The translations under genes and the position numbers were made by a program. From IMG/VR virus record IMGVR_UViG_3300028654_000001, positions 248,001-312,000 of that record: 64,000 bases of DNA. One strand, written 5' to 3'. The stretch comes from a virus. Below, one piece after another: positions 1,558 to 33,715 of the stretch. Position 1 is the first letter of the stretch, and each line of letters begins with the position of its first letter. The notes beneath the pieces were generated by a model that was given only the letters and a program-made list of their open reading frames with translations, had not been told where the DNA came from and searched no databases.

Positions 1558-2865
1558 ATGGCATCGGACCTCCACCTAATCCAACGGGTAGCATCAAAGT
1601 GGTCGAGTAAGGATTTTGAGTCAAGGTATGCCCGCCTTCTGCTTTCGATGTCAAGGGATCAAGCCAAAAAGGTCCTTGGTTTCCCTCCAAATGCTAACCC
1701 ATCAGAAAGTGAAATTACCAAGAACTATAGGGAGTTGGCTCTTAGGAACCACCCTGATCGTGGTGGTGATCTTGACACAATGGTGGAGATCAATGTTGCC
1801 AAGGATGTGCTGACCGGAAAGGCTCAGGAACGTTGGCAACCAGAGCCGAGCCCAGAGCGTACTAAATACAAGCCACCCCCACGTCCAGAGGCAGCCTACA
1901 CAGTGAAAGGGGTTCCATTTGCCGCCGCTTGGTCTGGAGCAGGGGTCCCAAGTGGCACTGATTGGAAGTTCGTCAGTGAGCAAGTTAGCTTGTACAGTAA
2001 GGGTTTCCCAACCCAACCTGGTTGTGTACTGTATGGGCAGACAGCAACACTCCATGTTTTCTGTGCAATCTTCAAGCAAGAGTCAACTGATAAGGTATGG
2101 CCCCCTACGGATTCTGATGGGAAGGTCTTTGAGGTTGAAGAAGGGTGGCGAGCTCAAGTTCTGACGGCCCCTATTGCTAAAGATCTAGATAAGATCGCCA
2201 TTAAGTACATCAAACAGATAGTCTCAAACTTCCCAGGTCCGGGCCCCAAAGATGGGAGTGTCCCAAAGAAGTATCTCCTCTATCCTCAAAGTATGGGAAG
2301 TCCAACGGAAGCCTATATCGGGAAGATCCCCTATCGTGGGAAGTTTGCCTTGAAAGAGGTTCTGAGACTTGCTGGTCTTGTTAAAGTTGATGAGGAGAAA
2401 GCTAAAGACACACCGGCTATTATTGAATTCTGGGGTGTCCAAAATAAGCAAAAACTACGAGATAACCCGAGAGGTTACTTGGGTAGTAGCGGTGACTTCT
2501 TCCTATCCATTGATGGCAAAGAGGTTAAACTAGAAGAGGGGACCTGCGAGAAGATCGTCAAGAGTATGTTCTTGGTCTCAGCTCTTCGAAACTTCGAGTA
2601 TCGAAAAGTCTACCGGTTGAATCGCCTGAAGGAGGGTTCTCTCTTCAAAGGCGGAGCTTACTACGCCTTCTTGACTCTTTTCGAGAGCCTCACTGGGGAA
2701 CCTTCTTGGGTAAAGGATGCCTTGGAAAAGAACGTAAGGATCTTCAAGCCTGAAGATCGAACAGCTTCAGTCTTCTTGAACCTCTGCTCTGAGATGTCTT
2801 TGAAGCAAGCTTCAGTTGTTACTGGGATCCCTATGCGTGAGCTAGTAGAGATGGTCTACGACTAA
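1558..2865 (+). CDS. DnaJ-domain protein with N-terminal VASKW-type tag
   Basis: The J-domain is clear: QAKKVLGFPPNANPSESEI, then the invariant HPD in RNHPDRGGD, at about residues 33-80 from the chosen start. The rest (about 330 aa) is not recognised. An ATG at 1465 would overlap the divergent Nudix gene; the ATG at 1558 gives MASDLHLIQRVASKW, which matches the peptide tag found on several other proteins here, so I chose it. J-domains stimulate Hsp70 (DnaK) ATPase, so it may recruit host DnaK. It is one of few plus-strand genes and ends 4 nt into the convergent GT51 gene. Confidence 0.75.
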   Translation: MASDLHLIQRVASKWSSKDFESRYARLLLSMSRDQAKKVLGFPPNANPSESEITKNYRELALRNHPDRGGDLDTMVEINVAKDVLTGKAQERWQPEPSPERTKYKPPPRPEAAYTVKGVPFAAAWSGAGVPSGTDWKFVSEQVSLYSKGFPTQPGCVLYGQTATLHVFCAIFKQESTDKVWPPTDSDGKVFEVEEGWRAQVLTAPIAKDLDKIAIKYIKQIVSNFPGPGPKDGSVPKKYLLYPQSMGSPTEAYIGKIPYRGKFALKEVLRLAGLVKVDEEKAKDTPAIIEFWGVQNKQKLRDNPRGYLGSSGDFFLSIDGKEVKLEEGTCEKIVKSMFLVSALRNFEYRKVYRLNRLKEGSLFKGGAYYAFLTLFESLTGEPSWVKDALEKNVRIFKPEDRTASVFLNLCSEMSLKQASVVTGIPMRELVEMVYD

Positions 2866-4538
2866 TCATCCAAGTCAACAGCTACCGGAGCCCCTAAGGC
2901 TGACTTCTCTACCTCAATCAAATCAGGGGGAACTTTCCCTGAAGCTGCAACCATATCAAGCAGCTTCTTGATCATCGGTAAGTCCTGTTGGTAGCTCGCT
3001 GAGTGATTCGGGCTCGGAAGCCTCAGAACCATGTACAGAGATTCTGACAGAGTCAGCTCGAGAGGGTCCTTCTTCAGGATCAGATACGACGCAGGCCCTA
3101 TCCCGTAGATGTCCGGGCCGTATTCCACGACGTTGAGATACATCTCGATGATCTTGTCCTTGGTGAACGAGCTCTCTAGGGCGACCGTTAGGATGGCTTC
3201 TTGGATCTTCCTTCCAATGGTTCGGTTCCTGTTCAGCCACAAGTTCTTCGCCAACTGCATCGTGATGGTGGAGCCGCCGCGGAAGAACCTTCCGAGCTTC
3301 AAGTTGTCCTTCAAGCTGTTCTCGATGGCCTGAGGGATGAAACCCCTGTGGTAGAAGAACGCAGGGTCCTCTGTGGTCGTGAGGGCTGTGGTCATGTTCG
3401 GACTGATCATCTGATAGGGAGTCCAGTCCGGTGCCGATGGTCCAGCTTTACGCGTGAATGGCTTTCCATTTGGATGGTACGCGGTATAGGTGAACTCACC
3501 TGAGAGATCCTTGATGAACTTCGGGGGCGGACCGGTTAGCTTGCAGCCGTTTGAGATCTTGAGTTTCACATCCGGAAGAAGCCTCAAGTCGAACTTGAAG
3601 TCTCCGACTAACCTCACCTGTTTGAGTGGATCGATCAGCATCTCTTCTGGGATAGACTCGAGCCAGTGCTGGCAAGAGTCCACGCCCCAGACATGCTTGC
3701 CTTCCCAGTTGAAGTAGATTGTCGACCACTTACTCTTCACCCAAAGGTTAGGCATCCCAACCAGAGGATTCTTGGGGTCGATAGCTGTGACCTCTACATA
3801 CCTGAAGGTGACTGGCACCGGGTAGAATCTCTTGTGCTCCACCTGGATGGACTTCGCCTTCGGGTAGATCAGGCCATCGGTAAACTCAAGGGCTAGCCCT
3901 TCAATGGTAACCGGTGGGTAGTAGATATTCCCGAGCTCGAGATGCTTGGTTTGAGTATTGAAGGAACCCTCGGTGAACTTGACCTTGTCCAGCTTGAGGA
4001 AGTCACTGATCTTTTGGAAGGCGTCTGGTAGACCAACCCAACCACTGGCAACAGTGGCTACCTTCGACTTGAAGTCGTAGTGCACCCCCTCTACCATAAC
4101 CAGACCGTACTTGGTCTCAATCTTCCCCGTGGCGGCCCGTGCCTCATTCGAATCAAAGGAGGCCTTGTAGAGTTTAGCGGAGTCCAGTCCCCTGTAGAGC
4201 TTCACGGTCAGGTTCTTACCGGTAACCTTGAAACCGGAACCGTTCTTCTGATCCTTTGAGTCAGAGGTTATGTCGACAAGAGCCAGCCCTCCATCAACCG
4301 CAATCGTCTTGGATTTTCTACAGGCAATTGCAGAATCGAAGGTACCCTCGATGTTGTGGATCTTTACGTTAACCCTCTCAAGCCTAACACAATCGAGGTT
4401 GAGTAACTTGACTGACCCAACCTCGACGCCTGGTTTCAACCCGTTGATGTAATGCTTCAGAATTGAAGGAAGAAGCCAGCCAAGTAACAGCAGGGTTACT
4501 GGTATTGAACCGATAATTAGCCATTTCTTACGTAGCAC
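2862..4538 (-). CDS. Membrane-anchored GT51 peptidoglycan transglycosylase
   Basis: 558 aa starting with GTG. Residues 5-28 form one membrane anchor. Residues about 40-370 are a beta-rich AsmA-like region without recognisable motifs. The C-terminal 180 aa are a GT51 glycosyltransferase: TTEDPAFFYHRG (catalytic Glu390), RGGSTITMQLAKNLWL, RKIQEAILTVALE and KDKIIEMYLNVVEYG. GT51 enzymes polymerise lipid II into glycan strands at the outer face of the inner membrane; no transpeptidase domain follows, so this is monofunctional. Such a biosynthetic enzyme is unusual on a phage and was probably host-derived. TGGTGTA lies 10 nt before the start. Confidence 0.85.
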   Translation of the reverse strand: MLRKKWLIIGSIPVTLLLLGWLLPSILKHYINGLKPGVEVGSVKLLNLDCVRLERVNVKIHNIEGTFDSAIACRKSKTIAVDGGLALVDITSDSKDQKNGSGFKVTGKNLTVKLYRGLDSAKLYKASFDSNEARAATGKIETKYGLVMVEGVHYDFKSKVATVASGWVGLPDAFQKISDFLKLDKVKFTEGSFNTQTKHLELGNIYYPPVTIEGLALEFTDGLIYPKAKSIQVEHKRFYPVPVTFRYVEVTAIDPKNPLVGMPNLWVKSKWSTIYFNWEGKHVWGVDSCQHWLESIPEEMLIDPLKQVRLVGDFKFDLRLLPDVKLKISNGCKLTGPPPKFIKDLSGEFTYTAYHPNGKPFTRKAGPSAPDWTPYQMISPNMTTALTTTEDPAFFYHRGFIPQAIENSLKDNLKLGRFFRGGSTITMQLAKNLWLNRNRTIGRKIQEAILTVALESSFTKDKIIEMYLNVVEYGPDIYGIGPASYLILKKDPLELTLSESLYMVLRLPSPNHSASYQQDLPMIKKLLDMVAASGKVPPDLIEVEKSALGAPVAVDLDD

Positions 4539-4548
4539 CTTGGCACCC

Positions 4549-4555
4549 TACACCA
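4549..4555 (-). promoter_or_regulatory. TGGTGTA motif before the GT51 gene
   Basis: Ten nt before the GTG start at 4538. Confidence 0.55.
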
Positions 4556-4566
4556 ACTGGTGGGCT

Positions 4567-5076
4567 TCAGCAAGAAACATATGTACAAAGGTACAGCTTA
4601 ATATCCCGACTTGTATGATCAAGAGCGCAGATGACCTCGAATAGGATTCTCTTGATCTCGTCTAATCGATCTAAATCAACTGAAAATAGGTCATTACCTC
4701 GGTACTCACTGCATTCGTACTCCAACAACCGGTAACCAAGAACGTAGTTTGAGTTACGATCCCAGTCATCTCCGTTCAAAGTTGGGTCCACAATATGGAA
4801 CTGAAGCTTATTAGTAGACCCATCGCTAGTGTTCCACTCGTCAAACAGCTCGTCTGGGGTCTTCTTACCAAACTGTTTTTTGGAGAATTCCATGAAGGCT
4901 GGTTTGAAACTGCGAACCATTTGAGGCTCAAGCTTAGCCCCACACTTGGAGCAGAAAGGACCTCCTTGAGGCGGGTGACCCTTTGGGCACACCACAGCTC
5001 CTGGAAGGGTAATCACCAAGTCATTGGGGCTTAGGGTGGCCCCAATGACCAATCGTGGATAGTAACTTGCTCCCAT
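4567..5076 (-). CDS. Zinc-ribbon protein of unknown function
   Basis: 169 aa with a CPKGH and FCSKCG pair (about residues 30-46) forming a probable four-ligand zinc ribbon. The remainder is not recognised. It follows the vWA gene by 7 nt and is probably co-transcribed with it and the sigma gene. A DNA, RNA or protein adaptor role is possible but nothing in the sequence decides it. Confidence 0.65.
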   Translation of the reverse strand: MGASYYPRLVIGATLSPNDLVITLPGAVVCPKGHPPQGGPFCSKCGAKLEPQMVRSFKPAFMEFSKKQFGKKTPDELFDEWNTSDGSTNKLQFHIVDPTLNGDDWDRNSNYVLGYRLLEYECSEYRGNDLFSVDLDRLDEIKRILFEVICALDHTSRDIKLYLCTYVSC

Positions 5077-5083
5077 GAAAACC

Positions 5084-7501: not shown

Positions 7502-7533
7502 AGGTGAGGAATCCTTCCGTGGGAATCCCTTAA

Positions 7534-7540
7534 TACACCG
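7534..7540 (-). promoter_or_regulatory. CGGTGTA motif before the vWA gene
   Basis: 32 nt before the ATG; the gap includes GGAAGGA. Confidence 0.55.
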
Positions 7541-7576
7541 ATGGTCACCAGAATCAATGACTTTCTTGTGAACAGA

Positions 7577-8143
7577 TTACAGATCAGATATACTGATCCC
7601 AGTCATTTTTTGAAGCTTCTCAACGACATCAGTCTTTATCTGGCTGATTCTTGGTTCGGATACGTTCAGTTGAGCGGCCAATTCCTTTTGGGTCATACCT
7701 TCGAAGTAGTACTTCAGAATAATCGTCTCTTCGCGCTTGGTAAGCTTCGCCATTTTTGCTATAACTTTTAGGAGAAGCTGTCTAGAAGATACTTGATCCT
7801 CACCCAAGGTTAGATCAACCACGTCATTGTCTAGAACATCCCTAAACTCAGGTTGATTATCGGGTCCTGCCCTGCGCACATACCCGCTCTCTTTGCGGAT
7901 CTCATCAATGATCTGCCCGCGGATCCTCACTCGAGCATAGTAGACGAACTCATCTTCAGAACCCTCGTATCGGTTACAGGCATCCCATAGACCGATCTTA
8001 CCCCAGTGGATCAGTTCCTCAATTTGAAATGGAAATCCAGAACCTCTTAGACTCCATGCAACTTGCTTAGCTAAATAGCTATACTTGTTGAACCTCTTGT
8101 TGAAACCCCTACTGATAGGAGCCTTTTCCTTGTGATTGAACAA
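7577..8143 (-). CDS. Phage RNA polymerase sigma factor (FliA/WhiG-like)
   Basis: 188 aa. Region 2 is clear: EELIHWGKIGLWDACNRYEG, then YYARVRIRGQIIDEIRKESG, as in sigma-28 proteins. Region 4 is a helix-turn-helix: LTKREETIILKYYFEGMTQ, then KELAAQLNVSEPRISQIK. It is shorter than FliA (about 240 aa), mainly because region 3 is reduced. The start is TTG at 8143 with AGGGAT upstream. It should redirect host RNA polymerase to phage promoters; the GGTGTA motif found before many genes is an obvious candidate target, but that link is inference. Confidence 0.85.
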   Translation of the reverse strand: MFNHKEKAPISRGFNKRFNKYSYLAKQVAWSLRGSGFPFQIEELIHWGKIGLWDACNRYEGSEDEFVYYARVRIRGQIIDEIRKESGYVRRAGPDNQPEFRDVLDNDVVDLTLGEDQVSSRQLLLKVIAKMAKLTKREETIILKYYFEGMTQKELAAQLNVSEPRISQIKTDVVEKLQKMTGISISDL

Positions 8144-8164
8144 TTAAGATCCCTATCCTAGAAA

Positions 8165-9607
8165 TCATAACACCTTTTCGAGCAACTCAACTTGGTCCTG
8201 TGGAAGTTCATCCATGCAATAGAAGGCTACCATCTCAGCAAAGTTTTCTTCATCATTCTTACCAGCATATGGAGTTATGAATCCAGATCCTGGTGTTGAT
8301 TCAGGCTTTATACCTTTGAGTGCAGCCCATCCCTTGAGTGAGATACTAGCCTTATACGACGGATCATCCTCTCTATGCATGGTTACCTGGTAACCACTTC
8401 GAGACCCTCCGTATCCAACCCGTTCAACAACATAGGTCTTACCTTTCTCAACCACTGTGTCACCAGGTTTAGGAGAGAGGTCAGGGTTTTTCCTGATCTC
8501 AAACTCGAGGTCACTCGTTGATTGATCTACCTTGGACTTGATAATCTGGTAGATCCTAGCTATGTCTCGGCGCTTACTCTGTAGGAACTTAAATTGAAGC
8601 CGGTGTGCCAACTCATGGAGGATCGTTTGGAGGGCTGCCCCTTCATTACCATTCAGATTGGCTCGTACGAAGAACTCATCACTGGAAACCATGTAGAAGG
8701 CTAGTACCTTGGACTTGGTCAGTGTGTTGGAGATGAGGGCATCTCCATAGCATACTTTTCCAAGACCTTTCTTTGCTAGAAGATGAACAGCCTTCTCAAT
8801 GACCCTGGCACAGTTAGCCATCGTGGCTTCATTAAAACCACCAGTGTTCACAAGTCTAAAGGGACCAGCCTTCAATACGGTAGGAGCATCCACCCCACGC
8901 ACTGTAGCTTTACTAAAGGCATCCTTAGCTATCGCCAAGTGTTCCGTGTATAACTTGAACAACTTCTGGAAGGCTTTGACCCCATCCTCAAAGTTCTTTG
9001 GGCTAGCAAAGCGTGTCTTCTCGTAGAACCTCGAGCAGGCTTCAACCTTCCTTCTAACATCCGCTGGGAGGTCGTATTGCTGAAGAAGACCAAGGAAAAT
9101 GTTCTGAACCCCTATCCTCTGCATGGTACCAAGTGAGGACTTAGGGAAAAGTATGTACTCGTACTTCTTGTTACCAAAGAACCTGGATACCTCTAGCTTC
9201 TTGCCCTCGAAGGGCTCTCCTTCGTGTTGACTCAAGTACTCTTGTGCACTCAAGACATGAGGAAGTTCAATCTCCAAGTCTTCGTATCGATCCAGAGTGG
9301 TTTCCCAAGAACGAATGAGGTTCGGAATATCACCAATGGACATCGCATACCGGCGAGCTACCGAAGCAACGATTGGGCCCCCCTCCTTGCACTTGTTACA
9401 AGTAGTCAACACGGTTACCCGATCCGGACTGGTGCACCGGCACTGCTGGGTAACCGTACCGCAAACTCTGCACACCACCTTGTAGTGCTGCTTAGGGCCT
9501 GGAATGAAGTTACCCTCTGGCGTCCAAGAGCCAGAATCCTCAGAGGCTACTCTAGAGCCACCGGCGCTAGCATACCGCCTGGCGACAGACTGAATGAGAG
9601 AGTCCAC
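8165..9607 (-). CDS. Tagged zinc metallopeptidase (HELAH)
   Basis: 480 aa, GTG start. HELAHR at 331-336 gives the HExxH zinc site, and FAEMVAFYC near the C-terminus could supply the third ligand Glu. Residues 46-73 carry CRVCG, QCRC and CNKCK, a probable zinc-binding knuckle. The N-terminus, LIQSVARRYASAGG, and a second copy at 79-89, IVASVARRYAM, match the tag shared by other proteins here. The internal tag raises the possibility that residues 1-78 are removed or separate. Closest in style to phage metalloproteases carried in virions; substrate unknown. Confidence 0.7.
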   Translation of the reverse strand: MDSLIQSVARRYASAGGSRVASEDSGSWTPEGNFIPGPKQHYKVVCRVCGTVTQQCRCTSPDRVTVLTTCNKCKEGGPIVASVARRYAMSIGDIPNLIRSWETTLDRYEDLEIELPHVLSAQEYLSQHEGEPFEGKKLEVSRFFGNKKYEYILFPKSSLGTMQRIGVQNIFLGLLQQYDLPADVRRKVEACSRFYEKTRFASPKNFEDGVKAFQKLFKLYTEHLAIAKDAFSKATVRGVDAPTVLKAGPFRLVNTGGFNEATMANCARVIEKAVHLLAKKGLGKVCYGDALISNTLTKSKVLAFYMVSSDEFFVRANLNGNEGAALQTILHELAHRLQFKFLQSKRRDIARIYQIIKSKVDQSTSDLEFEIRKNPDLSPKPGDTVVEKGKTYVVERVGYGGSRSGYQVTMHREDDPSYKASISLKGWAALKGIKPESTPGSGFITPYAGKNDEENFAEMVAFYCMDELPQDQVELLEKVL

Positions 9608-9635
9608 CCTACTGAGGGTTTATCGAATGACTATC

Positions 9636-11191: not shown

Positions 11192-11202
11192 GGTGGTTAG
11201 AA

Positions 11203-11209
11203 TACACCG
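11203..11209 (-). promoter_or_regulatory. CGGTGTA motif before the HAD gene
   Basis: Eleven nt before the ATG at 11191. Confidence 0.65.
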
Positions 11210-11255
11210 GGAATCTGCAGAATCTCAACTAACTATCTAAGTTTTATGTAATTTG

Positions 11256-11266
11256 GCCCAATGGGC
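11256..11266 (-). terminator. Weak terminator-like hairpin
   Basis: GCCC AAT GGGC stem followed on the minus strand by an A/T-rich run. It lies after the 130-aa gene and before the HAD gene's CGGTGTA motif. Confidence 0.4.
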
Positions 11267-11274
11267 GGTAACCT

Positions 11275-15596: not shown

Positions 15597-16237
15597 GTCT
15601 TATCCCCGTATTCCTTGATGAGGATCCTGTCCACAGACTCTAGGTCAATATCCTCGTTGCAGATCTTTTCAGCCATCAATAGGGCAGCCCCTATTGGCAT
15701 GGTTATTAGCTGAAGCTTGTGCCTTCGAAGAATCTCGGCTTGTTTCACGTGAAAAGCGTCTGTTATGTTGTCCCTTGGTAGTAACTTAGTGTATTCATTA
15801 GATATTCTGTGAGGGTGGCAGTAGTGAGGGTCACTGACCGCATAGTAAACCCTGCAAATAAGTGGTCGAGTTTGGTAAACAGAGCATCGATTCTGGTCAT
15901 TTAGGAGAGGGCAAGGGATCATAGCCTTCATCCACACGTGATACTCAGTACCAAACTGCTGGTCAGCGGAGAACTTCATTCTTTCTTTGATACCAGAAGT
16001 CCACTTACCCTGCTCCAACATCCAACGGTAAATCAAGATCCCTTCGAGAATTGAGATCACAACAGGATGGTAGCAACACCAGGCACAGCCAGCAGTACAG
16101 GTAATTCTCTGACCATGCTTGGGTACCTCCGATCGTAGCTGCATCTCGAAGTCGGAAGATAGATCACTTCGGAGAACTTCAGTCTTCCCAACTGATTCCT
16201 CAATGGCTAAAGGGAGGCGGTGTTTAGTCATCATCAT
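15593..16237 (-). CDS. YkgJ-family cysteine-cluster protein
   Basis: 214 aa. CTAGCAWCCYHP (CxxxCxxCC) with later CPLL, RCSVYQTRPLICRVY and YCH matches the YkgJ/UPF0153 cysteine cluster family (PF03692), predicted to bind zinc or iron. Three consecutive ATG codons lie at 16237, 16234 and 16231; any could start it. It overlaps the preceding gene by up to 14 nt. Biochemical role of the family is unknown. Confidence 0.8.
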   Translation of the reverse strand: MMMTKHRLPLAIEESVGKTEVLRSDLSSDFEMQLRSEVPKHGQRITCTAGCAWCCYHPVVISILEGILIYRWMLEQGKWTSGIKERMKFSADQQFGTEYHVWMKAMIPCPLLNDQNRCSVYQTRPLICRVYYAVSDPHYCHPHRISNEYTKLLPRDNITDAFHVKQAEILRRHKLQLITMPIGAALLMAEKICNEDIDLESVDRILIKEYGDKT

Positions 16238-16760
16238 CCAGTAGGATCCTGCTGAACCGATTGAACTCTGCTTTTGGTTGAGCAGCAGAGTTCACTGCTG
16301 CTTGGCGACGAGCAACAGTACCAATGGTTTGAGGGACAGTGATCCTAACAGAGTGCCCCTTCTGGTGAGTGGCCAAGATCAGAACTCCAGGACGAAGTTT
16401 GAGACTTGGGTTCACGAAGAATGAACCCCCCTCGCGGAAGATGTCACTCTGAATCCAATCGACCCAGGGCTCTAATATGATCTCAGGTCGGCGAAGAATA
16501 GCTGGAACTACCATCTTCACGAACGGCCCTGCCCCAGACTTGACGGGAGCAGTAAGGAGTTGCCAGACCTTCGGTGGGTTGCAGACTACTTCCGGATTGG
16601 TAGGATCTAGTTTATTGGCCTCTTCAGGAAGCTCAATCTTGAAACCATCTTGCCCAATAAGTGCGACAAGACGAGAGTGTCGATCATAACCGGTGACAAC
16701 CCATCTCTGACGAGTTCCCCCTTGGGCTTCATACGATACTAGGTCACCAACATCCATCAC
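16224..16760 (-). CDS. Hypothetical protein with acidic C-terminus
   Basis: 178 aa. The N-terminus (VGDLVSYEAQGG, RWVVTGYD) looks like a small SH3/Tudor-like beta barrel. The C-terminus ends RFSRILLDDDD, very like the end of the protein at 39392 (RFERILEDDD). ATGA overlap with the gene upstream. Confidence 0.6.
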   Translation of the reverse strand: MMDVGDLVSYEAQGGTRQRWVVTGYDRHSRLVALIGQDGFKIELPEEANKLDPTNPEVVCNPPKVWQLLTAPVKSGAGPFVKMVVPAILRRPEIILEPWVDWIQSDIFREGGSFFVNPSLKLRPGVLILATHQKGHSVRITVPQTIGTVARRQAAVNSAAQPKAEFNRFSRILLDDDD

Positions 16761-25058: not shown

Positions 25059-25067
25059 ACGGCCTAT

Positions 25068-25074
25068 TACACCG
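25068..25074 (-). promoter_or_regulatory. CGGTGTA motif before the DUF4419 gene
   Basis: Nine nt before the ATG at 25058; would be inside the gene if it began at 25082. Confidence 0.6.
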
Positions 25075-25095
25075 ATGGACACACAAACATCAAGC

Positions 25096-26115
25096 TTAAT
25101 TCAGCGAATTCAGTGATTCTAGTGGGAGGCTGCCCTTCGGACCTTCAATGATACCACCGTCGATTGGCCAGCTCTTAGGGACTGCAAGCCGTGGAACATC
25201 ACGGCCACGGACGAAGGCATCCGCAATAGCTTCAGACATACCGATAGTTAGCCCGGTAGTTTCTTTGATGTACTGGGTGACACGCTCAACCTTGTGAGCC
25301 TTGGTTTCCTTGGGTACGTACTTGAAAGCAGTCAAACCCTCCCTAGGAACATACACCCGATAGGCCTTTTCATTCACGTCTTGAATAGCCCAATCGACCC
25401 ACTGCCCAGCCTCTTCAACGTCAACACCTTTTGAACGCAGGTACTTCTCGACAGCTCCCTGGGTCATCTCCCTCTTCATCGTCTGGTAGAAAGCGAACGA
25501 AAGCATTTGGTGCTCTCGAGGGACTGGAACCCTCTCGTTGAAGTCGAACCCAAGTGGGGTGGCCCCACGCTCAACAGAAGAGAGGGCCTTGTCCAACTTA
25601 GGAGCTACGTGAGACTCAAAGAACTCTTCGACAAGCTTGTCGACTTGCTTGGTGAGCTCGTCCTTACTCTCCGCAACACTCTTCTCAAGAGCCTCCATAG
25701 TTTCGTTATAGCGTCGCTTCATGTCCGCTTCGATCCTATGAAACTCGGACTTCGAGACCCGGTTGAGCTGCCCTTTCTTCTCAAGTTTGGCGATAATATC
25801 AGCGCTACTGTTTGCAGAGCCCCAGAACTTTTCGTCCCCGTCACTCACTCTCCACATAACAACGGTGGAGCTATCTAGGTCATACACCCAGAGGTACCTC
25901 CATTTGTTAGCATGGGGTTTCTCAATCAACCGAGAGGGTCCTTGCCTAGCACCCTCCTCAAAGTCACTGCCTGTTGGTCCTATATAATCGGATAGGTTGT
26001 ACCGCTTACCGGAAATAGTGACAGTAGGAACCCTTGGCTTCTGGGGCAGTCTTACCAGGGGTCCCGCTTGACGGAACCTGGCTACAACATTGCGAATGAT
26101 CTTGAGGTCGTCCAT
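25096..26115 (-). CDS. Tagged hypothetical protein (VARF)
   Basis: 339 aa. The N-terminus LKIIRNVVARFRQAG matches the shared tag. Residues 130-190 are a probable coiled coil (ALEKSVAESKDEL, LVEEFFESHV). No catalytic motif is recognised. It lies in the 25-34 kb block of tagged proteins, so a virion or targeted-compartment role is possible. Starts one nt after the stop of a 34-aa ORF. Confidence 0.6.
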   Translation of the reverse strand: MDDLKIIRNVVARFRQAGPLVRLPQKPRVPTVTISGKRYNLSDYIGPTGSDFEEGARQGPSRLIEKPHANKWRYLWVYDLDSSTVVMWRVSDGDEKFWGSANSSADIIAKLEKKGQLNRVSKSEFHRIEADMKRRYNETMEALEKSVAESKDELTKQVDKLVEEFFESHVAPKLDKALSSVERGATPLGFDFNERVPVPREHQMLSFAFYQTMKREMTQGAVEKYLRSKGVDVEEAGQWVDWAIQDVNEKAYRVYVPREGLTAFKYVPKETKAHKVERVTQYIKETTGLTIGMSEAIADAFVRGRDVPRLAVPKSWPIDGGIIEGPKGSLPLESLNSLN

Positions 26116-26220
26116 TCAATACTTACCAATATCGATCCGCTTCTTTTCACCAGTCTCGAGATTAACTACTTGGATCCCAATGATGTCTACTACCCTACGG
26201 AGGATGGGATCACTTAACAT
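26116..26220 (-). CDS. Possible 34-aa small protein
   Basis: A short frame, MLSDPILRRVVDIIG..., fills the gap exactly between the genes at 26115 and 26222 (stop abuts the next ATG). Its start resembles the tag (ILRRVV). Tight fit supports it, but it is very short. Confidence 0.45.
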   Translation of the reverse strand: MLSDPILRRVVDIIGIQVVNLETGEKKRIDIGKY

Positions 26221-26221
26221 C

Positions 26222-26701
26222 CTAGACTATTACCCCTAGGTCCCCCAAGTTCTCAACCACCTGCATCAAGCTATCCACAGCATGTACGTCGTCCGTAATG
26301 AGTTTCCTTAGTTCACGATCGTGAACCTTAGTTTCTATACTCTTGAAGTCGTGTATTATATCGTTTACATCAGCTAGGTCATTGGATACAGCGTCAAGGA
26401 CATCATCCTTCTTACGTCTCCAGGACACCAACTTCTCTTCAACTTCCTCTGGAAGGGCCAAGGCACTCTTGTATCTAGAGGCAACCCTTCGAATGAGTAG
26501 GGCATCTTGAAATTCTTTGAGGGGTTCCATTGTAGCTTCTTTCCCTTTTAGGTATTCACTCTGGGGTTTGTGACAGTGAGGAGAACCTGGATTCTTGTGC
26601 TTACAAAATACGGACCACGCAGTTGCCCAGGCCTGCTCATCAGAGTAGTCTGGGTTATCCTTTTTAATTTTCTCGTGGTATTTGTCAACTGGAGAGGGCA
26701 T
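26222..26701 (-). CDS. Tagged protein with AW.TAWS...C.HKNPGS.HC N-domain
   Basis: 159 aa. The N-terminal domain DEQAWATAWSVFCKHKNPG with HCHK is a short Cys/His element I associate with many large phages. From residue 58 a new Met opens MEPLKEFQDALLIRRVASRY, a full copy of the shared tag, followed by helices. The internal tag suggests either an internal start or cleavage. Function unknown. Confidence 0.6.
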   Translation of the reverse strand: MPSPVDKYHEKIKKDNPDYSDEQAWATAWSVFCKHKNPGSPHCHKPQSEYLKGKEATMEPLKEFQDALLIRRVASRYKSALALPEEVEEKLVSWRRKKDDVLDAVSNDLADVNDIIHDFKSIETKVHDRELRKLITDDVHAVDSLMQVVENLGDLGVIV

Positions 26702-26705
26702 GTTA

Positions 26706-28049
26706 TCACCTGATGCTTGGTTGTGCCTTCACTCGAGCGGCTACTCTTGAAGCAAGCACTGCATCCTCAAATTCACGAAGTGATTCGGTTGCTGACTTCT
26801 CAGACCCTTCGTTCTTCTTGACGAACCAGATCTCGGACACGTCACTCAAGTTTACCTTAACCGTACCCTCTTCATCATTGGAGGTTGCCTCTTCCGTTGG
26901 CTCTTCCTCAGGGGGCTCCTCTTCCGTTGGTTCTTCCTCGTCAAGATCCTCTTCGGGCTCTTCAGCACCCTCATCAAAAGAGGTAAGAACACTGTCAACA
27001 TCCTCGTCACCAAAGTCCTCAAACTCCTTGGCGACGTTAGCCGTCATGAAGTTACCGAGAACGTCATCAACATCTACCTCAGCACCCTCAGCCGCATAGC
27101 GGTATAGGACCAGAGCCGGGTTTCCAGTAGAAGCCAAATGGCTCATGAACTCCTCAACTCCGTGTCCGATGTGACCGATCTCATCCAGAACATGGAGGTG
27201 ACCCATTGCACGCGACACAGCCTTCATGGCTGTGTGTCTTGCCATCCCTTTGGCAAAGGCCCCAGCGGCTGCAATCGGGCTGCTAGCAGTCAGAGCTGCA
27301 GCTGCAACACCAATGGCTATATGCATGGCAACGGTCTTGACAGCCTTTTTCTGATCCTTGCTCATCTTCTTTCCACTAAGTACAGTCTTGATCCCTTGAC
27401 CGGCTTCTTTGTACTCGTGGACTTCGTGCTTGACGGCCTTTACCACTCCTTTAGTGATCTTCTCTGGAGCTTCAACTAGAGACTTGTGGATCTCATGAAG
27501 GACCTTGCGGCGATGGCTGTCATCCTGAATGAACTGTTGGACTTCCTTAGGGGCATTCTTGACGAAGTCGAGCGCCTTGGCGCCGAGCCCCTTCATCCGT
27601 TCCTTCCAGTTCTTCTTCGGAGACTCCTTATGCTCGTCGGTCTTGGCTTTTGGCTTTTCCTCAGTCGTAGTCTCCTCTGGTTTCTCACCAGTGGGCTTCT
27701 CCTTGGTCTTATCGTCAGTGGGCTTTCCTTTTGACTTATCCTTTTCTTCAGCCTTCTCCACCCAGGCCTGGTAGGCCTTCATGGCCTCCTGATAGAAGTG
27801 CTTGTTCTTCAGAGCTGTGCTGAACGAGACTTGGCGGTGCCGGTCACGAGACAGTGGATTGGGACTCGGGTTCGGAACCATCCTCTTGCCACCCTGTTGG
27901 GTGGTCTCGAGCCACTCACGCCACCGGGGGGGTACACGACCCTTGTTGCTCGAGGAACCCTCTTCCGGATCTTCGCCCTCACTCAGAGCAACTTTCTGAT
28001 AGAGAGCGGCTACTCGAAGAGCCAGCACATGATCAGCTAGGTTAATCAT
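26706..28049 (-). CDS. Large tagged protein, tag at both ends
   Basis: 447 aa. N-terminus ADHVLALRVAALYQK and C-terminus LREFEDAVLASRVAARVK both resemble the tag; the C-terminal copy is close to that in the 159-aa neighbour. Between them: a Lys/Glu/Thr/Pro-rich segment (100-145), a basic helical region, an Ala-rich hydrophobic helix (about 250-270), then an acidic Glu/Pro tract (350-395). Charge-segregated, low-complexity build suggests a structural or scaffold-like protein. Not otherwise recognised. Confidence 0.6.
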   Translation of the reverse strand: MINLADHVLALRVAALYQKVALSEGEDPEEGSSSNKGRVPPRWREWLETTQQGGKRMVPNPSPNPLSRDRHRQVSFSTALKNKHFYQEAMKAYQAWVEKAEEKDKSKGKPTDDKTKEKPTGEKPEETTTEEKPKAKTDEHKESPKKNWKERMKGLGAKALDFVKNAPKEVQQFIQDDSHRRKVLHEIHKSLVEAPEKITKGVVKAVKHEVHEYKEAGQGIKTVLSGKKMSKDQKKAVKTVAMHIAIGVAAAALTASSPIAAAGAFAKGMARHTAMKAVSRAMGHLHVLDEIGHIGHGVEEFMSHLASTGNPALVLYRYAAEGAEVDVDDVLGNFMTANVAKEFEDFGDEDVDSVLTSFDEGAEEPEEDLDEEEPTEEEPPEEEPTEEATSNDEEGTVKVNLSDVSEIWFVKKNEGSEKSATESLREFEDAVLASRVAARVKAQPSIR

Positions 28050-28327
28050 ACCTTTTGCAGGTAGTCAGGGTTGCACATGTACATCCTCTGAGTAACCTTC
28101 CCACGAGTTGTAATCTCAGTCACCTGAGCAACTTCAACCCCACGATCACTATAGAGCTTCGTCATGGTACGCTTGGAGTGCATGTACCGCGGTTCTGGCC
28201 AATGAGCTTTCGCTATTGCATCGAGATACTCTTTCTCGGTGCACTCCATCATCCCAGAAGCTGTTTTGGCAGTAGTTTGCTCAGCAAGAACTCTAGCGGC
28301 TACCCTGGCAATGATCTGAAGGCTCAT
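28046..28327 (-). CDS. Small tagged protein
   Basis: 93 aa. N-terminus SLQIIARVAARVLAEQ is the shared tag; the rest (TEKEYLDAIAKAHWP, QRMYMCNPDYL) is a small unknown domain. ATGA-coupled to the 447-aa gene. Confidence 0.6.
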   Translation of the reverse strand: MSLQIIARVAARVLAEQTTAKTASGMMECTEKEYLDAIAKAHWPEPRYMHSKRTMTKLYSDRGVEVAQVTEITTRGKVTQRMYMCNPDYLQKV

Positions 28328-28363
28328 GAACGTCTCCTGCTACAGAAGACGTTATCAAAAGAA

Positions 28364-29047
28364 TCAGGTAGCGTTGCCCGTATCTCGAAGCTTATCTAAC
28401 CACTCCTGGATATTATCCAAATCTGTATACAGGAATAGGACACCGTAAAGAGTGCTAGCCCCGTACAGAACATCTGTGAAGAATGAGTTGTTCTGGGCAG
28501 CTTTTTCGATTTTTTGGTATACAATGGCCTCACTACCCAGGTATACCTCGAGATTCCAATCGATACTGAACTCCTCCTCCTCTTTCAGAAGCTTGTCTTG
28601 AAGCACCCCTGCTTCCTTAGCAAGCTGATACATCTTGATCATGCTAGGAAGGTCTTGAACAGCCTCAATAATACCGTGCGATAGCTTAAGTCCCTCAACG
28701 ATCTGTTTCATGAGGGTCTCCCACTCTTTGTCAAGCTTCTTTGCTACGGTAACCCCCTCTTGCAACAGGCTAACTAGTTGCTCAGTATCTTTGATCCTCT
28801 GTTCGATCTTGTCCGCTTCAACCCCAATTGCAGGAGTCTGGAGTGGGCCGACTAAGGATCTGAAGATAGAAGCCAAGTACTTGCACTTCTTTATGTAACC
28901 CCCAGCAGCCTTAACGTCTCGTTTGACCGAATCTCTGGCGTCTTCCCATTCAATAGCCTCCGCATCCCCGAACCAATCAATGGCAGAGGTTACTTGTTGT
29001 TGATAGCGTTTAACAACAGAGGCTATGAGGGTTCTATCGTCAGTCAC
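28364..29047 (-). CDS. Tagged helical protein
   Basis: 227 aa. N-terminus RTLIASVVKRYQQQ is a variant of the tag. The body is almost wholly helical, with a hydrophobic stretch near the C-terminus (FFTDVLYGASTLYGVLFLY) that could be membrane-active. Unknown. Confidence 0.55.
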   Translation of the reverse strand: MTDDRTLIASVVKRYQQQVTSAIDWFGDAEAIEWEDARDSVKRDVKAAGGYIKKCKYLASIFRSLVGPLQTPAIGVEADKIEQRIKDTEQLVSLLQEGVTVAKKLDKEWETLMKQIVEGLKLSHGIIEAVQDLPSMIKMYQLAKEAGVLQDKLLKEEEEFSIDWNLEVYLGSEAIVYQKIEKAAQNNSFFTDVLYGASTLYGVLFLYTDLDNIQEWLDKLRDTGNAT

Positions 29048-29070
29048 ATAGAACTAACTCAATCAAAAGA

Positions 29071-31446
29071 TCAGGCTTCAGCAGCGGCCGGAGAAATCTC
29101 CCCCCGAGGGGGTATGTCAGCAGGCTCCCGCTCTCGCAAGGTAATCATACAATCCCCACCATTGACGGCTTGTTTCGTTACAACAATCTTTTCAATGTCA
29201 GGGTTGTTTGGAGCTTCATAGGAGATCTTCCTGGTTGCTTTCTCTACAATCGAACGCAGAGCCCTGGCACCCGTTGGCTTCTTCTTAGCCAGAGTGGCGA
29301 TCTCGGTGAGAGCTTCTGGATCAAATTCAAGGTTGATCCCATCCATTCTGAAGAGGGCCTGAACCTGTTGCACTATACTATTCCGTGGTTTCACCAAAAT
29401 CTCGACTAACTGTTCTTCTGTTAGCTCGATAGTACTAGTAATTATAGGAAGGCGTCCCATCATCTCAGGTATGATCCCAAAGTCCAGAACATCTTGCTCT
29501 ATAACCTCAGTATAACCACGGGTTTTATCAACTTTTTCCTTTGCTACAGCCCCAAAACCCATGCTGGAACTCTTGTTCAACCTTCGAGCAACAATCTCAT
29601 CAATGCTAGCAAAGGCACCCGCGCAGATGAAGAGAATGTTCGTAGTATCCACCAAGTCAAAGGTCTGCATCCCGGCGCCAGCCTTACCCATTCCACGAGG
29701 GACTGCCACTGTCGACCCCTCGAGGAGCTTGAGGAGGGCTTGCTGAACACCCTCACCAGATACATCCCGGTACCCAGCTCGGTCACGACCGCTACCCCTG
29801 GCGATCTTGTCTACCTCGTCTAAAAACACGATTCCCCATTGAGCACGCTCCACATCTCCACCCGCATCTAATATGAGACCCTGGATGAGAGTCTCCACAT
29901 CAGCCCCAACATAACCGGCTTGTGTGAGGGTGGTTGCGTCTCCAACATGGAATGGAACGTTCAGCATCCGAGCTAACGTCTCAAAAATATGAGTTTTTCC
30001 AGTGTTATGGGTAACAGTGAAGTCGTCCAGTAGGTAGCGGTGGTCCCCATCTAAAACAAATCCAAAGTATTCCTCAGCCGGCATAGTTCGAGTCTTGAAT
30101 CCAATCCTGAGAACATTTTTACTAGACTGCCTCTCAGCTGCCTTCTTACGAGGTATTCTAGTAGGGACTTCAGAGGTACTTCCGGATATGCACATCCGAT
30201 AGTAAGCCCCTACAAATCCTGTTTGACAACTCTTTGTACAAGGTTGCGGGTAACAAGCAAAACCAAGACTCCTAGTAATGAAGGTTAGGTCCCCCACTAA
30301 GGTTTTCGACTTGTTTACGAAGTCAAAGCAACTGCATTCATCGAGAGAACCATCTGTATCGATTAACCCTGCTAGGATCTCTAACCGATCTTTCCTAGAT
30401 GCTGTTTTGTAACAATGAGGTATGAACTTGTTCTCTCCAGTAACCCTAAGTAAACCTAGGCCCTCTAATGCTTTTGCTATTGGATTCTGAGGCTTACCGC
30501 ATCCTGGCTTGTCTGGGTTGGGGGAGTAACTATCACTCTGGGTCAAGTAATAAGTTGGGCACCGTTCCCCATTAGAATCATTCGGGGATAGGGTTAATCC
30601 AAATTTAGCAGCTTGCCTCTCTAGCTCTGCAAGTATCTCTGGGTCATCTGTAGTCACACCTGGGGTGCCTCCTAATGAACCGTCACCTAGTAGGATACCT
30701 AAGAAGTAAGGGTCAATAGGGAGTTCAGTTGTAGTAGCGGTAAACTCAACTGGTACCCGGAATAACTTGTGAACCGACTTCCTAGTTCTAGACCAAGATA
30801 GCCAATCCATTAGGGCAACGTCAGAAACATCATTAGCAGGGCGGTACCCTGATCCACCATTGTATCCAGTACGAACAAGAGTAAGGATATGACCCTCATT
30901 AACTACCCAGGGCTCGCCCTTAGTTGGAACAATCTCAACCATCCCACTAGTACCCCGATGTAATTCAAGTACATTGCGAGGGGTACTATCTGGACCCATA
31001 AGCTGATCACCCACCTGAACATCCTCTACAGCTTTTAGGGTCCCATCGAACATCAGCACAAGCTGACCTTTTTGGTGGCACCCGCTCGGCCCTAGAAACA
31101 AAATATTGCTTTTCCTAATTTCCACGGGTTTTGACCCGTCAGTCGGTTGCTCAGTAGCCCACTTACGACGTTTGAAGTGGTTGTAGACCACCGTGGAGAT
31201 GTCAATCTTGGCTTGCTCTTGTCCAATCACAAATTCATCCAAGTGAGCTTTGATCTCAAAGGGCTTCTTAAGAGGTTCTTCTTTCTTAGCCTCAAAGCCA
31301 CCCTTTTCAGCACCAGCTTCAAGAGAGGCAGCAGCCTGTACAATACATCGATTGCAGATCGATGGCCCCTTCTCTGGATTTGCTACAACGAGGTTCTTAA
31401 CCTCGTTTCGGGGGCGTCCGCAAAAGTCACAGGTAGTTACTGCCAT
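29071..31446 (-). CDS. clpX: ClpX-like AAA+ unfoldase, intein-split
   Basis: 791 aa precursor; 432 aa after removal of the intein (residues 123-481), close to bacterial ClpX. N-terminal zinc finger CDFCG...CNRC, Walker A split as GPSG/TGKT, pore loop AGYVGADVE, Walker B IVFLDEVDKIA, and sensor regions are all present. The loop SSSMGFGAV corresponds to the ClpP-docking IGF loop, so docking onto host ClpP is plausible. The RKH loop of bacterial ClpX is replaced by Gly/Ala-rich sequence (GMGKAGAGM), suggesting altered substrate choice. CGGTGTA lies 13 nt before the ATG, with no Shine-Dalgarno. Confidence 0.9.
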   Translation of the reverse strand: MAVTTCDFCGRPRNEVKNLVVANPEKGPSICNRCIVQAAASLEAGAEKGGFEAKKEEPLKKPFEIKAHLDEFVIGQEQAKIDISTVVYNHFKRRKWATEQPTDGSKPVEIRKSNILFLGPSGCHQKGQLVLMFDGTLKAVEDVQVGDQLMGPDSTPRNVLELHRGTSGMVEIVPTKGEPWVVNEGHILTLVRTGYNGGSGYRPANDVSDVALMDWLSWSRTRKSVHKLFRVPVEFTATTTELPIDPYFLGILLGDGSLGGTPGVTTDDPEILAELERQAAKFGLTLSPNDSNGERCPTYYLTQSDSYSPNPDKPGCGKPQNPIAKALEGLGLLRVTGENKFIPHCYKTASRKDRLEILAGLIDTDGSLDECSCFDFVNKSKTLVGDLTFITRSLGFACYPQPCTKSCQTGFVGAYYRMCISGSTSEVPTRIPRKKAAERQSSKNVLRIGFKTRTMPAEEYFGFVLDGDHRYLLDDFTVTHNTGKTHIFETLARMLNVPFHVGDATTLTQAGYVGADVETLIQGLILDAGGDVERAQWGIVFLDEVDKIARGSGRDRAGYRDVSGEGVQQALLKLLEGSTVAVPRGMGKAGAGMQTFDLVDTTNILFICAGAFASIDEIVARRLNKSSSMGFGAVAKEKVDKTRGYTEVIEQDVLDFGIIPEMMGRLPIITSTIELTEEQLVEILVKPRNSIVQQVQALFRMDGINLEFDPEALTEIATLAKKKPTGARALRSIVEKATRKISYEAPNNPDIEKIVVTKQAVNGGDCMITLREREPADIPPRGEISPAAAEA
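30004..31080 (-). mobile_element. Intein with LAGLIDADG endonuclease in clpX Walker A
   Basis: 359 residues, Cys123 (CHQKGQLVLMFDG) to Asn481 (TVTHN), followed by Thr+1. LAGLIDADG motifs LGILLGDGSL and LAGLIDTDGS are visible. Insertion is exactly inside the P-loop. Confidence 0.9.
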
Positions 31447-31459
31447 AGAGGAGGTATAC

Positions 31460-31466
31460 TACACCG
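31460..31466 (-). promoter_or_regulatory. CGGTGTA motif before clpX
   Basis: 13 nt before the ATG at 31446; the gap is pyrimidine-rich (CCTCCTCT), the opposite of a Shine-Dalgarno. Confidence 0.65.
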
Positions 31467-31498
31467 ACAGCCTACTAATGCCAAGTAAATCGTGGATT

Positions 31499-33715
31499 CT
31501 AGCCCATCAGCTTCTCAAACCGCTCGACTTTTAAGTGGTCCCATGGGCCGGTTATATTGAAGTGTCCAAGAGCGAATAACTCAGCAAATGACTCACTAGA
31601 ACCTGACATGGACTCGGTCATACTGTACTTGCTAGTCCACCACTCCGGCTTGTCGAAGTCAACGGGTAACTTGTGTAGTTTCTCGTACCGGTGCCCAAGT
31701 TCGTGAATCAAAATGTAGTCTACGCTGCCGTATGTGCCACCAGAACGCTGGAGAATCTTTGGGACAGCCCGAACATAGAGCGTGTCTTCAGATGCGCTAT
31801 ACCTGCCTGAGGATGTACCCCTGAAGTTTTTCGGTGGGGCTAGAGCTACAGTCAGGCCTCCCGAGAGAGCCTTCTTCCTCCATCCTGAAAGGCCACTGAA
31901 CAGGGAGTCTAATCGAGTTGCATACTTGATGAGATTGTCCTCGGACATACCTACCTTGTTGAGGTAGGTGTCAGATCCAATCTTGTACTCTGCTACAAGC
32001 TTGCTACCACCTTCATCAGTGAAATACTGAATGAGCTCATCCATCTTTGGCTTCAAGTCTCGTTCCCATAGAGTCTTGACAACCACTTGAGTCATTTTAT
32101 CGGAATCTGGAGAGAGGTTCCACCCATGCTCGTTTCTGGATTGATTCAAGATCCCCATAAAGCGATCCAAAGAGTCAACCATACCCCGGTGCCCACGGAC
32201 ACTGACTCCAACCTTGAAGTTCTGCTTCATCCAATCAGCCAAGTCATAGGCCTTGGATCTATCATAGGGGCCATGCAGAAGAGATTCAACTCTCTTTTCA
32301 AGATCATCAGCTAAGCCCGCTAAGAAAAGGCGAGCTATTCGAAGTGGGTATATTGCGGCTGACTTGTTGTGTTTGAAGAACTCAACCTGCTTGAGCCGAT
32401 CCTCTGCTTCTTCCTTGGACTTATAGCAACCACCACTCCAATCAGGGTTATTTGGGCTACGAACGCAGTACTGCCCTTTTTCCTTATGGATGACTGCCAG
32501 CACCGATCCTGCAAGCTTCACCTCACCTGGGATAACAATCCTCAACCAGTCCTTTACTTGGTCTAGGACTGTAGCGGAACCGTAGCCAACTAACCTACCG
32601 ATAGCATCACAGAAAGCCTCTTCTGGCTTCTTACCAGCGTACCCTGTGACGGGGTTCTTGGGTACCTTGAGTGTGGTGACCCCAGCATCAAACCCACTCT
32701 GAAAGTCTTCTCGAGTCTCGTAAGCGTGGCTAGATTGATGTCCGTGAGATAGGACGTCCACTTGGAGGGCAAGGACAGGATCCTTGGTCTTCATGTAGTC
32801 GGTGAAGTCCGAACTCCAGGTGAGACGTTCTGGCCACTTGTCAAGAAGCTCCTTTAGATCAAGGGGACCATAGTCCTGACGAATAGCCGTGTCCCAGTAC
32901 TCCTGAGCGGAACCAGAGAGGCCCTTGTACATGTGGTGGGCCATCTCGTGAGCCATCATATGAGCCCCCCACAGCGAGCTTTCCCCTGTCATGGACAACA
33001 TAGAGACCATGATGTGATCCGTTAGGTATTCCCCACCCTGGTCTAATTTACCCTCGAAGTTGATCTCAATCGGAAGTTGGTGATGGATCAACCAAGGGAC
33101 AGTCTTAGAGGCATTGCGCCTGTAGATTCGGAGGGACTCCCTAAACTTGGCGAGAGTCTCCTGTTGCCAATCCTCTTTAGGATCGAACCCGTAGACCTCT
33201 GCTTGGAAACCCTCGATCACCAATCGATCTCGGTTTGGGACTTTGACCTTGATCTCAGAATCCGGAACATTCTCAAGTGCACCCTTGATAGCTTTCCAGA
33301 ACTTCTGTGCTCGGACTTTGACTTTCTTTTCCCAAGGATCCTTATCCATCAGGAATCTTTGGAATCTAGCATCCTTGCCTGCAACTGTAGCAGGAAGGCT
33401 TGGGGCCATCAAGGGAAACGCTAGCTCCAAGTAAAAGTCCCAAGCTGGAGTCCTAAGTTTATCGAAACGGTGATCCCCATTATCCTTGTACTCATTCAGG
33501 AACTGTTCGAACATGAGGAGCTTGAATCTCCCCTTGTACACATCGAAGGCCTCTTTTAGCTCAACGGCCTCATCATAGTCCTTGACCAGAGGTAGGTTCT
33601 TCATCAAGGTGAGGAAGTCCTTGCGCATCTTCTCCACCCAGTTCACATTGATCTGTGAGATACCCGCTACTTTACGGCGGTACCTGTGGGCTACGGTGAG
33701 TACGAGAGGATCCAA
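31499..33715 (-). CDS. Two-domain tagged zinc metallopeptidase, possible polyprotein
   Basis: 738 aa. First HExxH at 256-260 (HEMAHHM), second at 671-675 (HELGHRYEKLH), with ESFAELFALGH later supplying a likely third ligand for the second. Tag LVLTVAHRYRRK at the N-terminus and a second tag-like LRIARLFLAG at 458-467. Just before the second tag lies GQYCVRSPNNPDW with GGCYKSKEEAEDR and EFFKH, a small Cys element I associate with phage virion proteins. The arrangement tag-protease-tag-protease looks like two proteins fused end to end, possibly cleaved between. Substrates unknown. Confidence 0.65.
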   Translation of the reverse strand: MDPLVLTVAHRYRRKVAGISQINVNWVEKMRKDFLTLMKNLPLVKDYDEAVELKEAFDVYKGRFKLLMFEQFLNEYKDNGDHRFDKLRTPAWDFYLELAFPLMAPSLPATVAGKDARFQRFLMDKDPWEKKVKVRAQKFWKAIKGALENVPDSEIKVKVPNRDRLVIEGFQAEVYGFDPKEDWQQETLAKFRESLRIYRRNASKTVPWLIHHQLPIEINFEGKLDQGGEYLTDHIMVSMLSMTGESSLWGAHMMAHEMAHHMYKGLSGSAQEYWDTAIRQDYGPLDLKELLDKWPERLTWSSDFTDYMKTKDPVLALQVDVLSHGHQSSHAYETREDFQSGFDAGVTTLKVPKNPVTGYAGKKPEEAFCDAIGRLVGYGSATVLDQVKDWLRIVIPGEVKLAGSVLAVIHKEKGQYCVRSPNNPDWSGGCYKSKEEAEDRLKQVEFFKHNKSAAIYPLRIARLFLAGLADDLEKRVESLLHGPYDRSKAYDLADWMKQNFKVGVSVRGHRGMVDSLDRFMGILNQSRNEHGWNLSPDSDKMTQVVVKTLWERDLKPKMDELIQYFTDEGGSKLVAEYKIGSDTYLNKVGMSEDNLIKYATRLDSLFSGLSGWRKKALSGGLTVALAPPKNFRGTSSGRYSASEDTLYVRAVPKILQRSGGTYGSVDYILIHELGHRYEKLHKLPVDFDKPEWWTSKYSMTESMSGSSESFAELFALGHFNITGPWDHLKVERFEKLMG

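Follow-up and report, generated by a model that had tools for sequence, protein, structure and literature searches.

Short N-terminal capsid-targeting sequences (CTSs) are used by bacteriophage T4 to package internal proteins, including Alt, a head-packaged and ejected ADP-ribosyltransferase, and 10 residues of IPIII are enough for targeting (PMC9026906). DarB of P1 has an N-terminal CTS as well, with no consensus among the N-termini of the P1 Dar proteins (PMC9024508), and in SPN3US and phiKZ N-terminal regions of inner head proteins have been proposed to act in a CTS-like manner (PMC5694885). Giant injected effectors with genes near those of the virion are known as polyvalent proteins, in which zincin is the commonest domain (Iyer et al., 2017, PMC5512222). 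Here we describe a short peptide tag, with a core of roughly LIxRVAxRY, on proteins encoded in a stretch of 64,000 nucleotides (the window), which comprises bases 248,001-312,000 of the 512,571-bp virus record IMGVR_UViG_3300028654_000001 (G000).

Like T4 (IPI-III and Alt) and P1 (DarB), the phage of this record puts a short N-terminal peptide on a number of proteins whose mature parts are unrelated, one of them an ADP-ribosyltransferase; the injection of effectors is experimental in T4, and for this phage we infer it. Unlike the N-termini of the P1 Dar proteins (PMC9024508), those tagged here have a clear consensus, and in contrast to the head propeptides of SPN3US and phiKZ, which are mostly ~80-160 residues or longer and are removed by the prohead protease (PMC5694885), the motif has 9-15 residues and is common to many proteins. 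Zincin, ADP-ribosyltransferase, NUDIX and GNAT domains in giant proteins of related phages, encoded among virion genes, recall the polyvalent proteins, whereas in this phage most effectors are separate genes dispersed over 500 kb, each bearing this peptide; a search of PMC5512222 found no mention of a shared peptide of that kind, and the literature searched contained no description of this one. The tag also differs from the CTSs of T4 and P1 in its number of carriers, which are ~30 in one phage as against a handful, and in its additional copies at C-termini and domain junctions. We take the T4 CTS to be unrelated to it in sequence. In bacterial microcompartments and encapsulins, short terminal amphipathic peptides (encapsulation peptides and cargo-loading peptides, respectively) load diverse cargo into a shell; the likeness is one of working only, and shells and sequences differ.

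A peptide tag on about thirty proteins

The earlier note, made from the sequence of the window alone, had reported the peptide on at least eight proteins between positions 1558 and 33715. Every example that it listed is present in the translated open reading frames (ORFs; Table 1), and the observation is confirmed and extends further: ~30 proteins across the record bear the tag, which in most cases begins no more than 13 residues from the N-terminus, so that it is genome-wide and not limited to that region. Genome ORFs were called by a simple longest-ORF rule, which makes the gene starts approximate. The consensus of 34 sites is D-[DL]-x-[LI]-[IV]-x-R-V-[AV]-x-R-[YF]-x-x-A, with V5 of the tag present in 33 sites, R8 in 26 and R4 in 23. 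The amphipathic and basic character ascribed to the peptide was borne out by a helical hydrophobic moment of 0.55, compared with 0.31 for random 9-mers. One listed copy, LRIARLF in the 738-amino-acid (aa) protein, scores only 1.1 bits and should not be counted.

A loose pattern matched 10 times in the window's called genes (nine of these matches being sites of the earlier note) versus 3 times in non-gene ORFs, which overlap the genes and have a similar total length; a strict pattern gave 5 and 1, respectively. A profile search of the full genome, which had been proposed as a check, showed the tag to be enriched over shuffled, reversed and other-frame controls. The first genome matrix (≥13 bits) gave 50 matches versus 0-3 in shuffled sequences, 4 in reversed ones and 3 in other frames, and a curated matrix (≥11 bits) gave 43 among 767 called proteins versus 6-12 in shuffles, 27 of these 43 beginning within the first 20 residues (0-1 in shuffles). 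So that the test would not be circular, the 10 sites of the window alone were made into a matrix, which was applied outside the window and found 28 proteins there with an N-terminal match; 100 shuffles that permuted the N-terminal residues themselves, and thus kept their composition, gave a mean of 5.0 and a maximum of 12. Unseeded motif discovery on N-termini with the motif fraction held fixed recovered the tag (log-likelihood 147 versus 104-110 shuffled), and a floating fraction gave low-information motifs. A long DNA pattern for the tag, which had 4 sites in this genome and no more than one in any relative, was too strict for a census.

The earlier note had placed the peptide at the N-terminus, inside and at the C-terminus alike. 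All three positions occur, but the tag is mainly N-terminal, and many internal copies lie at domain junctions. In the DnaJ-domain protein it stands at residue 7 if translation starts at the in-frame ATG 1558, and it appears internal because the longest ORF begins too early; in the 159-aa protein it is truly internal, behind a small separate module (module C). Copies at extreme C-termini were found in the 447-aa, an 86-aa and a 96-aa protein. The second copy in the 480-aa protein follows a CxxC...CxC...CxxC module, which in a relative (L229) also stands before a tag and topoisomerase IB (TopoIB).

The mature parts of the ~30 tagged proteins are unrelated in pairwise comparison save for a few pairs, so that what is found is a short terminal peptide on proteins with unrelated mature parts, as in CTS cargo. 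The 480-aa and 738-aa proteins, both zincin-like, are not fully independent, since each is weakly similar to another tagged zincin, the third, which is encoded outside this region. Among the carriers are a TopoIB (PF01028, E=4.3e-27), a 396-aa DRAT-like ADP-ribosyltransferase (E=1.1e-10), the DnaJ protein (PF00226, E=1.4e-7), five or more proteins that show zincin-like HExxH motifs or match zincins weakly (the 480-aa protein matches Peptidase_Mx1 at E=8.5e-5, under the Pfam cut-off) and many without assignment. Judged by their domains, the ADP-ribosyltransferase (as T4 Alt), zincin-like peptidases, TopoIB and DnaJ would be proteins of host-takeover types; PADLOC gave no match for seven tagged or related proteins. 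In the TopoIB the tag and the start of the domain overlap, and part of the conservation there may therefore be the enzyme's.

At identical residues of the tag, codon identity is 26.9% (0.269), compared with 26.5% (0.265) expected from codon usage. Codons as varied as usage predicts imply a repeated origin of the tag or its maintenance by selection at the protein level, and not the recent copying of a DNA cassette.

Conservation in relatives and links to head genes

The capsid protein is of the Bacillus phage G type (identity 84% to LR745208, 48% to Tunturi_5, 38.5% to Bacillus phage G and ~29% to cluster C mycobacteriophages), and 538 IMG/VR contigs, which are metagenomic and fragmentary, hold a related capsid gene. 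None of the phages found here to carry the tag is a cultured isolate. Conservation in relatives, on which the earlier note had made its claim depend, was looked at in six related huge phages, all of which carry the tag on further, mostly unrelated proteins: 37 N-terminal tags of ≥11 bits were found versus ~1 in shuffles, G013 alone being weak, and the window-only matrix gave 48 N-terminal matches versus a mean of 15.0 and a maximum of 25 in shuffles. The 63 terminal tags of the sampled phages are spread over ~40 BLAST-unrelated families. Two relatives of the 447-aa protein were found in IMG/VR, and no relative of the 480-aa peptidase was confirmed there.

Several observations connect the tag with head genes. 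In four relatives (L249-L252) giant ORFs of 2,300-2,800 residues lie between the portal and head-maturation protease genes. Homologues of proteins that stand alone and tagged in this phage, namely TopoIB, the zincins of 353, 480, 244 and 738 aa and a 131-aa protein, occur in L249-L253 in giant ORFs or in ORFs adjoining TopoIB ones, and the giant ORFs of L249-L252 join them with TopoIB, PolyA polymerase, phosphoribosyltransferase or GNAT domains. A NUDIX-tag-TopoIB-tag-zincin fusion is present in L253, whose head neighbours lie beyond the fetched stretch; there the homologue of the 738-aa protein has a tag in front and is fused to TopoIB. In the giant fusions tags stand directly before TopoIB and at several other domain junctions. 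Several unrelated effector domains in one polypeptide, as in polyvalent proteins, were thus found in L249, L250 and L253, and in the window's own phage the effectors mostly stand alone, the 738-aa double zincin being a partial fusion.

Outside the head cluster there are 28 tagged proteins, and for 5 of them a homologue is encoded in the terminase-portal-protease-capsid interval of relatives; among untagged proteins this holds for 13 of 721 (Fisher p=3e-4), and several of these 13 look like intein, homing-nuclease or capsid-gene fragments. All six orthologues found of a 130-aa protein encoded next to the terminase carry the tag. In 80 relatives, 29 tag matches of ≥15 bits lie no further than 5 kb from the capsid gene, versus 0-8 in shuffles; 20 of the loci are on the sense strand, and ~20 of the 80 relatives have a tagged ORF at that distance. 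One of these relatives' loci, L074, has the tag, module B (a segment between the two zincin parts of the 738-aa protein) and an ADP-ribosyltransferase ~2.6 kb from the capsid gene (PF18760, E=2.8e-9, a family labelled 'in polyvalent proteins'); module B occurs with the tag beside the capsid gene in relatives, and module C is followed there by the tag or by a weaker or drifted form. The large head-cluster protein is itself tagged in G001, G004 and G013, and in G004 it contains, as an insertion, a domain of the 447-aa protein from the window. The head-maturation protease of the record was recognised by phrog_18299 (E=2.5e-12); a search with Pfam Peptidase_S77 gave no match, and neither did its control.

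Probable capsid targeting and its alternatives

Capsid targeting, which the earlier note had named as a precedent, is well supported because of the head-cluster fusions, the conservation of the tag beside the terminase, the tagged ORFs near the capsid gene and the tagged ADP-ribosyltransferase, packaging itself being deduced from them. The peptide is probably a prohead cargo signal that gathers proteins into the head for injection with the DNA, the prohead being the destination to which the genome context points. The amphipathic basic helix would be bound by part of the prohead core, probably by scaffold or core proteins whose genes adjoin those of capsid, portal and protease, and unrelated proteins from all over the genome would thereby be collected inside the prohead. 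Candidate receptors are a putative scaffold protein (record 405231-406670) and the head-cluster protein (record 409814-410914). These would stay in the head with the DNA and then be injected into the host as enzymes of early take-over or counter-defence (ADP-ribosyltransferase, zincin-like peptidases, topoisomerase IB, DnaJ and uncharacterised proteins). Related phages would solve the same problem by covalent fusion, with effectors strung in giant polyvalent proteins of the head cluster. The head-maturation protease may remove the tag, as in T4. The simplest reading is that a polyvalent repertoire is kept as separate genes and that one peptide brings its members to the same place.

A number of results weigh against capsid targeting. 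In LR745208, despite its closely related capsid protein, only drifted forms such as VAFRHLL and LVDRYLSLRVAGRYL were seen by eye, and matrix scans of LR745208, Tunturi_5 and Bacillus phage G gave no enrichment of the tag over chance. DnaJ relatives in G004 and G018 and short TopoIB proteins in L255 and L256 have no tag, and the phage's own 366-aa head-cluster protein lacks the one that three relatives have. No protease cleavage site was recognised in the residues next to the tag, the interval comparison depends on 5 proteins, and AlphaFold models of the 159-aa and 447-aa proteins (predicted local distance difference test 54 and 33) were too poor for use. In Bacillus phage G a lone tag-like N-terminus, MKRLISKTAARYAAS (MKRLISKTAARY...; 14.4 bits), was observed in gp13 (YP_009015324.1, 11937-12203), whose gene directly precedes the portal gene; the match may be chance.

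That short hydrophobic and basic N-termini simply look alike is hardly credible. Low-scoring internal matches are common in any genome, but N-terminal shuffles that keep composition, reversed sequences and non-gene frames fail to reproduce the tag, which blind motif discovery recovered and orthologues conserve; at the level of the enrichment, chance is already refuted. A processing or joint peptide of present or former polyvalent polyproteins, cut by the head-maturation protease or a zincin domain and left as a relic or propeptide after the effectors became separate genes, need not target anything. Tags at several domain junctions of the giant fusions would suit it, zincins have been proposed to process polyvalent proteins (PMC5512222), and the CTSs of T4 are cleaved propeptides too (PMC9026906). 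We nevertheless regard it as unlikely, given the strong N-terminal conservation on stand-alone proteins, where release is not needed, the tags at extreme C-termini, the spread to ~40 families and the fully varied synonymous codons, which favour present selection over a relic; it is compatible with targeting, and the two are not exclusive.

The remaining alternatives concern other destinations, and we consider both very improbable. An amphipathic helix directed to the inner membrane, or to membrane-bound sites of prohead assembly, would share the amphipathic and basic nature typical of peripheral membrane helices, but plain membrane binding does not need residues as specific as V5, R4, A/V6, R8 and the aromatic residue at position 9, and the associations with the head cluster would be left unexplained. 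Recruitment to another intracellular machine of the phage, such as its ClpX, a replication compartment or a nucleus-like shell, could be argued from the ClpX gene that sits among the tagged genes; it leaves unexplained the fusion with head-cluster proteins and the conservation beside terminase and capsid genes. The import into a phage nucleus that the earlier note had given as its other precedent found no support: the capsid is of the Bacillus phage G type, and searches of the record with PF00562 and PF00091, for which the controls were positive, found no Rpb2-type RNA polymerase subunit and no tubulin, although diverged polymerases could escape and chimallin was not searched.

Further terminal peptides and what such labels may mean

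A second N-terminal peptide, D[DE]IE[SE][YF]W[ED]G[IL]RPPR (IExYWEGIRPPR), was observed on 21 proteins of the record; 19 record proteins match I-E-x-[YF]-W-x-x-[IL]-R in their 40 N-terminal residues, versus 0.01 expected. Downstream similarity was seen in one pair only, ten tested proteins gave no function save a weak HNH-repeat match, and the sampled relatives lack the peptide. A third, C-terminal peptide, PTRFER[IE]LxDD (PTRFERILxDD) or PTRFEREDVI, was observed on ~50 proteins, mostly at 10-245 kb of the record; TR[FL][ED][RK] lies in the last 25 residues of 50 proteins versus 0.15 expected. Eight proteins carry it in the relative G001, and among ten tested proteins only the RecA-like one in the window gave Pfam matches, which are weak. 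Three separate ORFs of the record are pieces of a capsid-protein homologue, and those at 220848-221597 and 222714-223754 end in the third tag. In LR745208 (L110, L111, L121) another repeated peptide, LRSKLIRLAHENPALRPHLLPLLKEA, was noticed in five proteins.

Modules B and C resemble the N-termini of the VBM1 and HVTV-1 head-maturation proteases (hhalign 96% and 91%). Their use as markers of such proteases was not adopted and is a hint only, in view of the weak BLAST similarity (E 0.1-0.6) and the further likeness of module B to proteins of T4-like enterobacterial and Klebsiella phages. By eye, intein-like inserts seem to interrupt four genes of the window, and a 542-aa protein looks TnpB-type (IS605).

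Table 1. Features of the window, with related features of the record and of relatives; coordinates are window positions unless marked as record.
Feature	Coordinates	Strand	ORF	Basis or remark
Tag LIQRVASKW, DnaJ-domain protein	1576..1602	+	1465-2865, probable start ATG 1558	pattern/matrix
N-terminal tag LIQSVARRY, 480-aa zincin-like protein	9572..9598	-	8165-9607	pattern/matrix
Second tag IVASVARRY, 480-aa protein	9347..9373	-	8165-9607	directly behind CxxC...CxC...CxxC module
N-terminal tag IIRNVVARF, 339-aa protein	26074..26100	-	25096-26115	pattern/matrix
Tag LIRRVASRY, 159-aa protein	26471..26497	-	26222-26701	extended form LKEFQDALLIRRVASRYKSA; behind module C
Module C, residues 1-53 of 159-aa protein	26543..26701	-	26222-26701	AWATAWSVFCKHKNPGSPHCHK
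N-terminal tag LALRVAALY, 447-aa protein	27999..28025	-	26706-28049	pattern/matrix
C-terminal tag LASRVAARV, 447-aa protein	26730..26756	-	26706-28049	extended form LREFEDAVLASRVAARV; pattern/matrix
N-terminal tag IIARVAARV, 93-aa protein	28289..28315	-	28046-28327	translated ORFs
N-terminal tag LIASVVKRY, 227-aa protein	29003..29029	-	28364-29047	pattern/matrix
N-terminal tag LVLTVAHRY, 738-aa double-zincin protein	33680..33706	-	31499-33715	pattern/matrix
Module B, 738-aa protein	32370..32485	-	31499-33715	KEKGQYCVRSPNNPDWSGGCYKSKEEAEDRLKQVEFFKH; approximate limits
LRIARLF, 738-aa protein	32324..32344	-	31499-33715	weak tag resemblance
Third tag	16224-16760	-		variant NRFSRILLDDDD
Third tag	39392-39787	-		
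Third tag, RecA-like protein	40766-41425	-		
ClpX, seemingly interrupted	29071-31446	-		intein-like, by eye (translations)
AAA ATPase, seemingly interrupted	43481-46426	-		intein-like, by eye (translations)
DNA polymerase, seemingly interrupted	47843-52093	-		intein-like, by eye (translations)
Helicase, seemingly interrupted	55557-58655	-		intein-like, by eye (translations)
542-aa protein, TnpB-type by eye	37339-38967	-		
Second tag	record 18-234 kb and 508 kb			e.g. 39748-40284, 78618-79160, 149714-150562, 232839-234361; none in window
Pieces of capsid-protein homologue	record 220848-221597, 222714-223754, 462580-463089			separate ORFs
L249 giant protein				PolyA_pol + TopoIB, with HELTH zincin motif
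L250 giant protein				Pribosyltran + TopoIB + GNAT, with HEXXH motifs
L253 giant protein				NUDIX + TopoIB + zincin

The three tag sets (30, 21 and 50 proteins) have zero overlap (P=0.013 by permutation). We tentatively put forward, as a possibility somewhat short of an even chance, a sorting code with several addresses, in which at least three terminal peptides would each direct a set of proteins of their own to a separate place or time, the first set as head cargo. If this is true, the fate of a protein would be set by short labels, and not by its fold or operon.

If the reading of the LIxRVAxRY peptide as a capsid-targeting signal is right, it would provide a sequence-level test for which unknown proteins of this large clade of huge phages are injected into the host, information that otherwise comes only from the virion proteomics of a small number of isolates. 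It would also give a ready address peptide to load very large heads with chosen cargo, and it would join capsid-targeting sequences with polyvalent injected proteins, since the same effectors occur as fusions in one phage and as singly tagged proteins in another.

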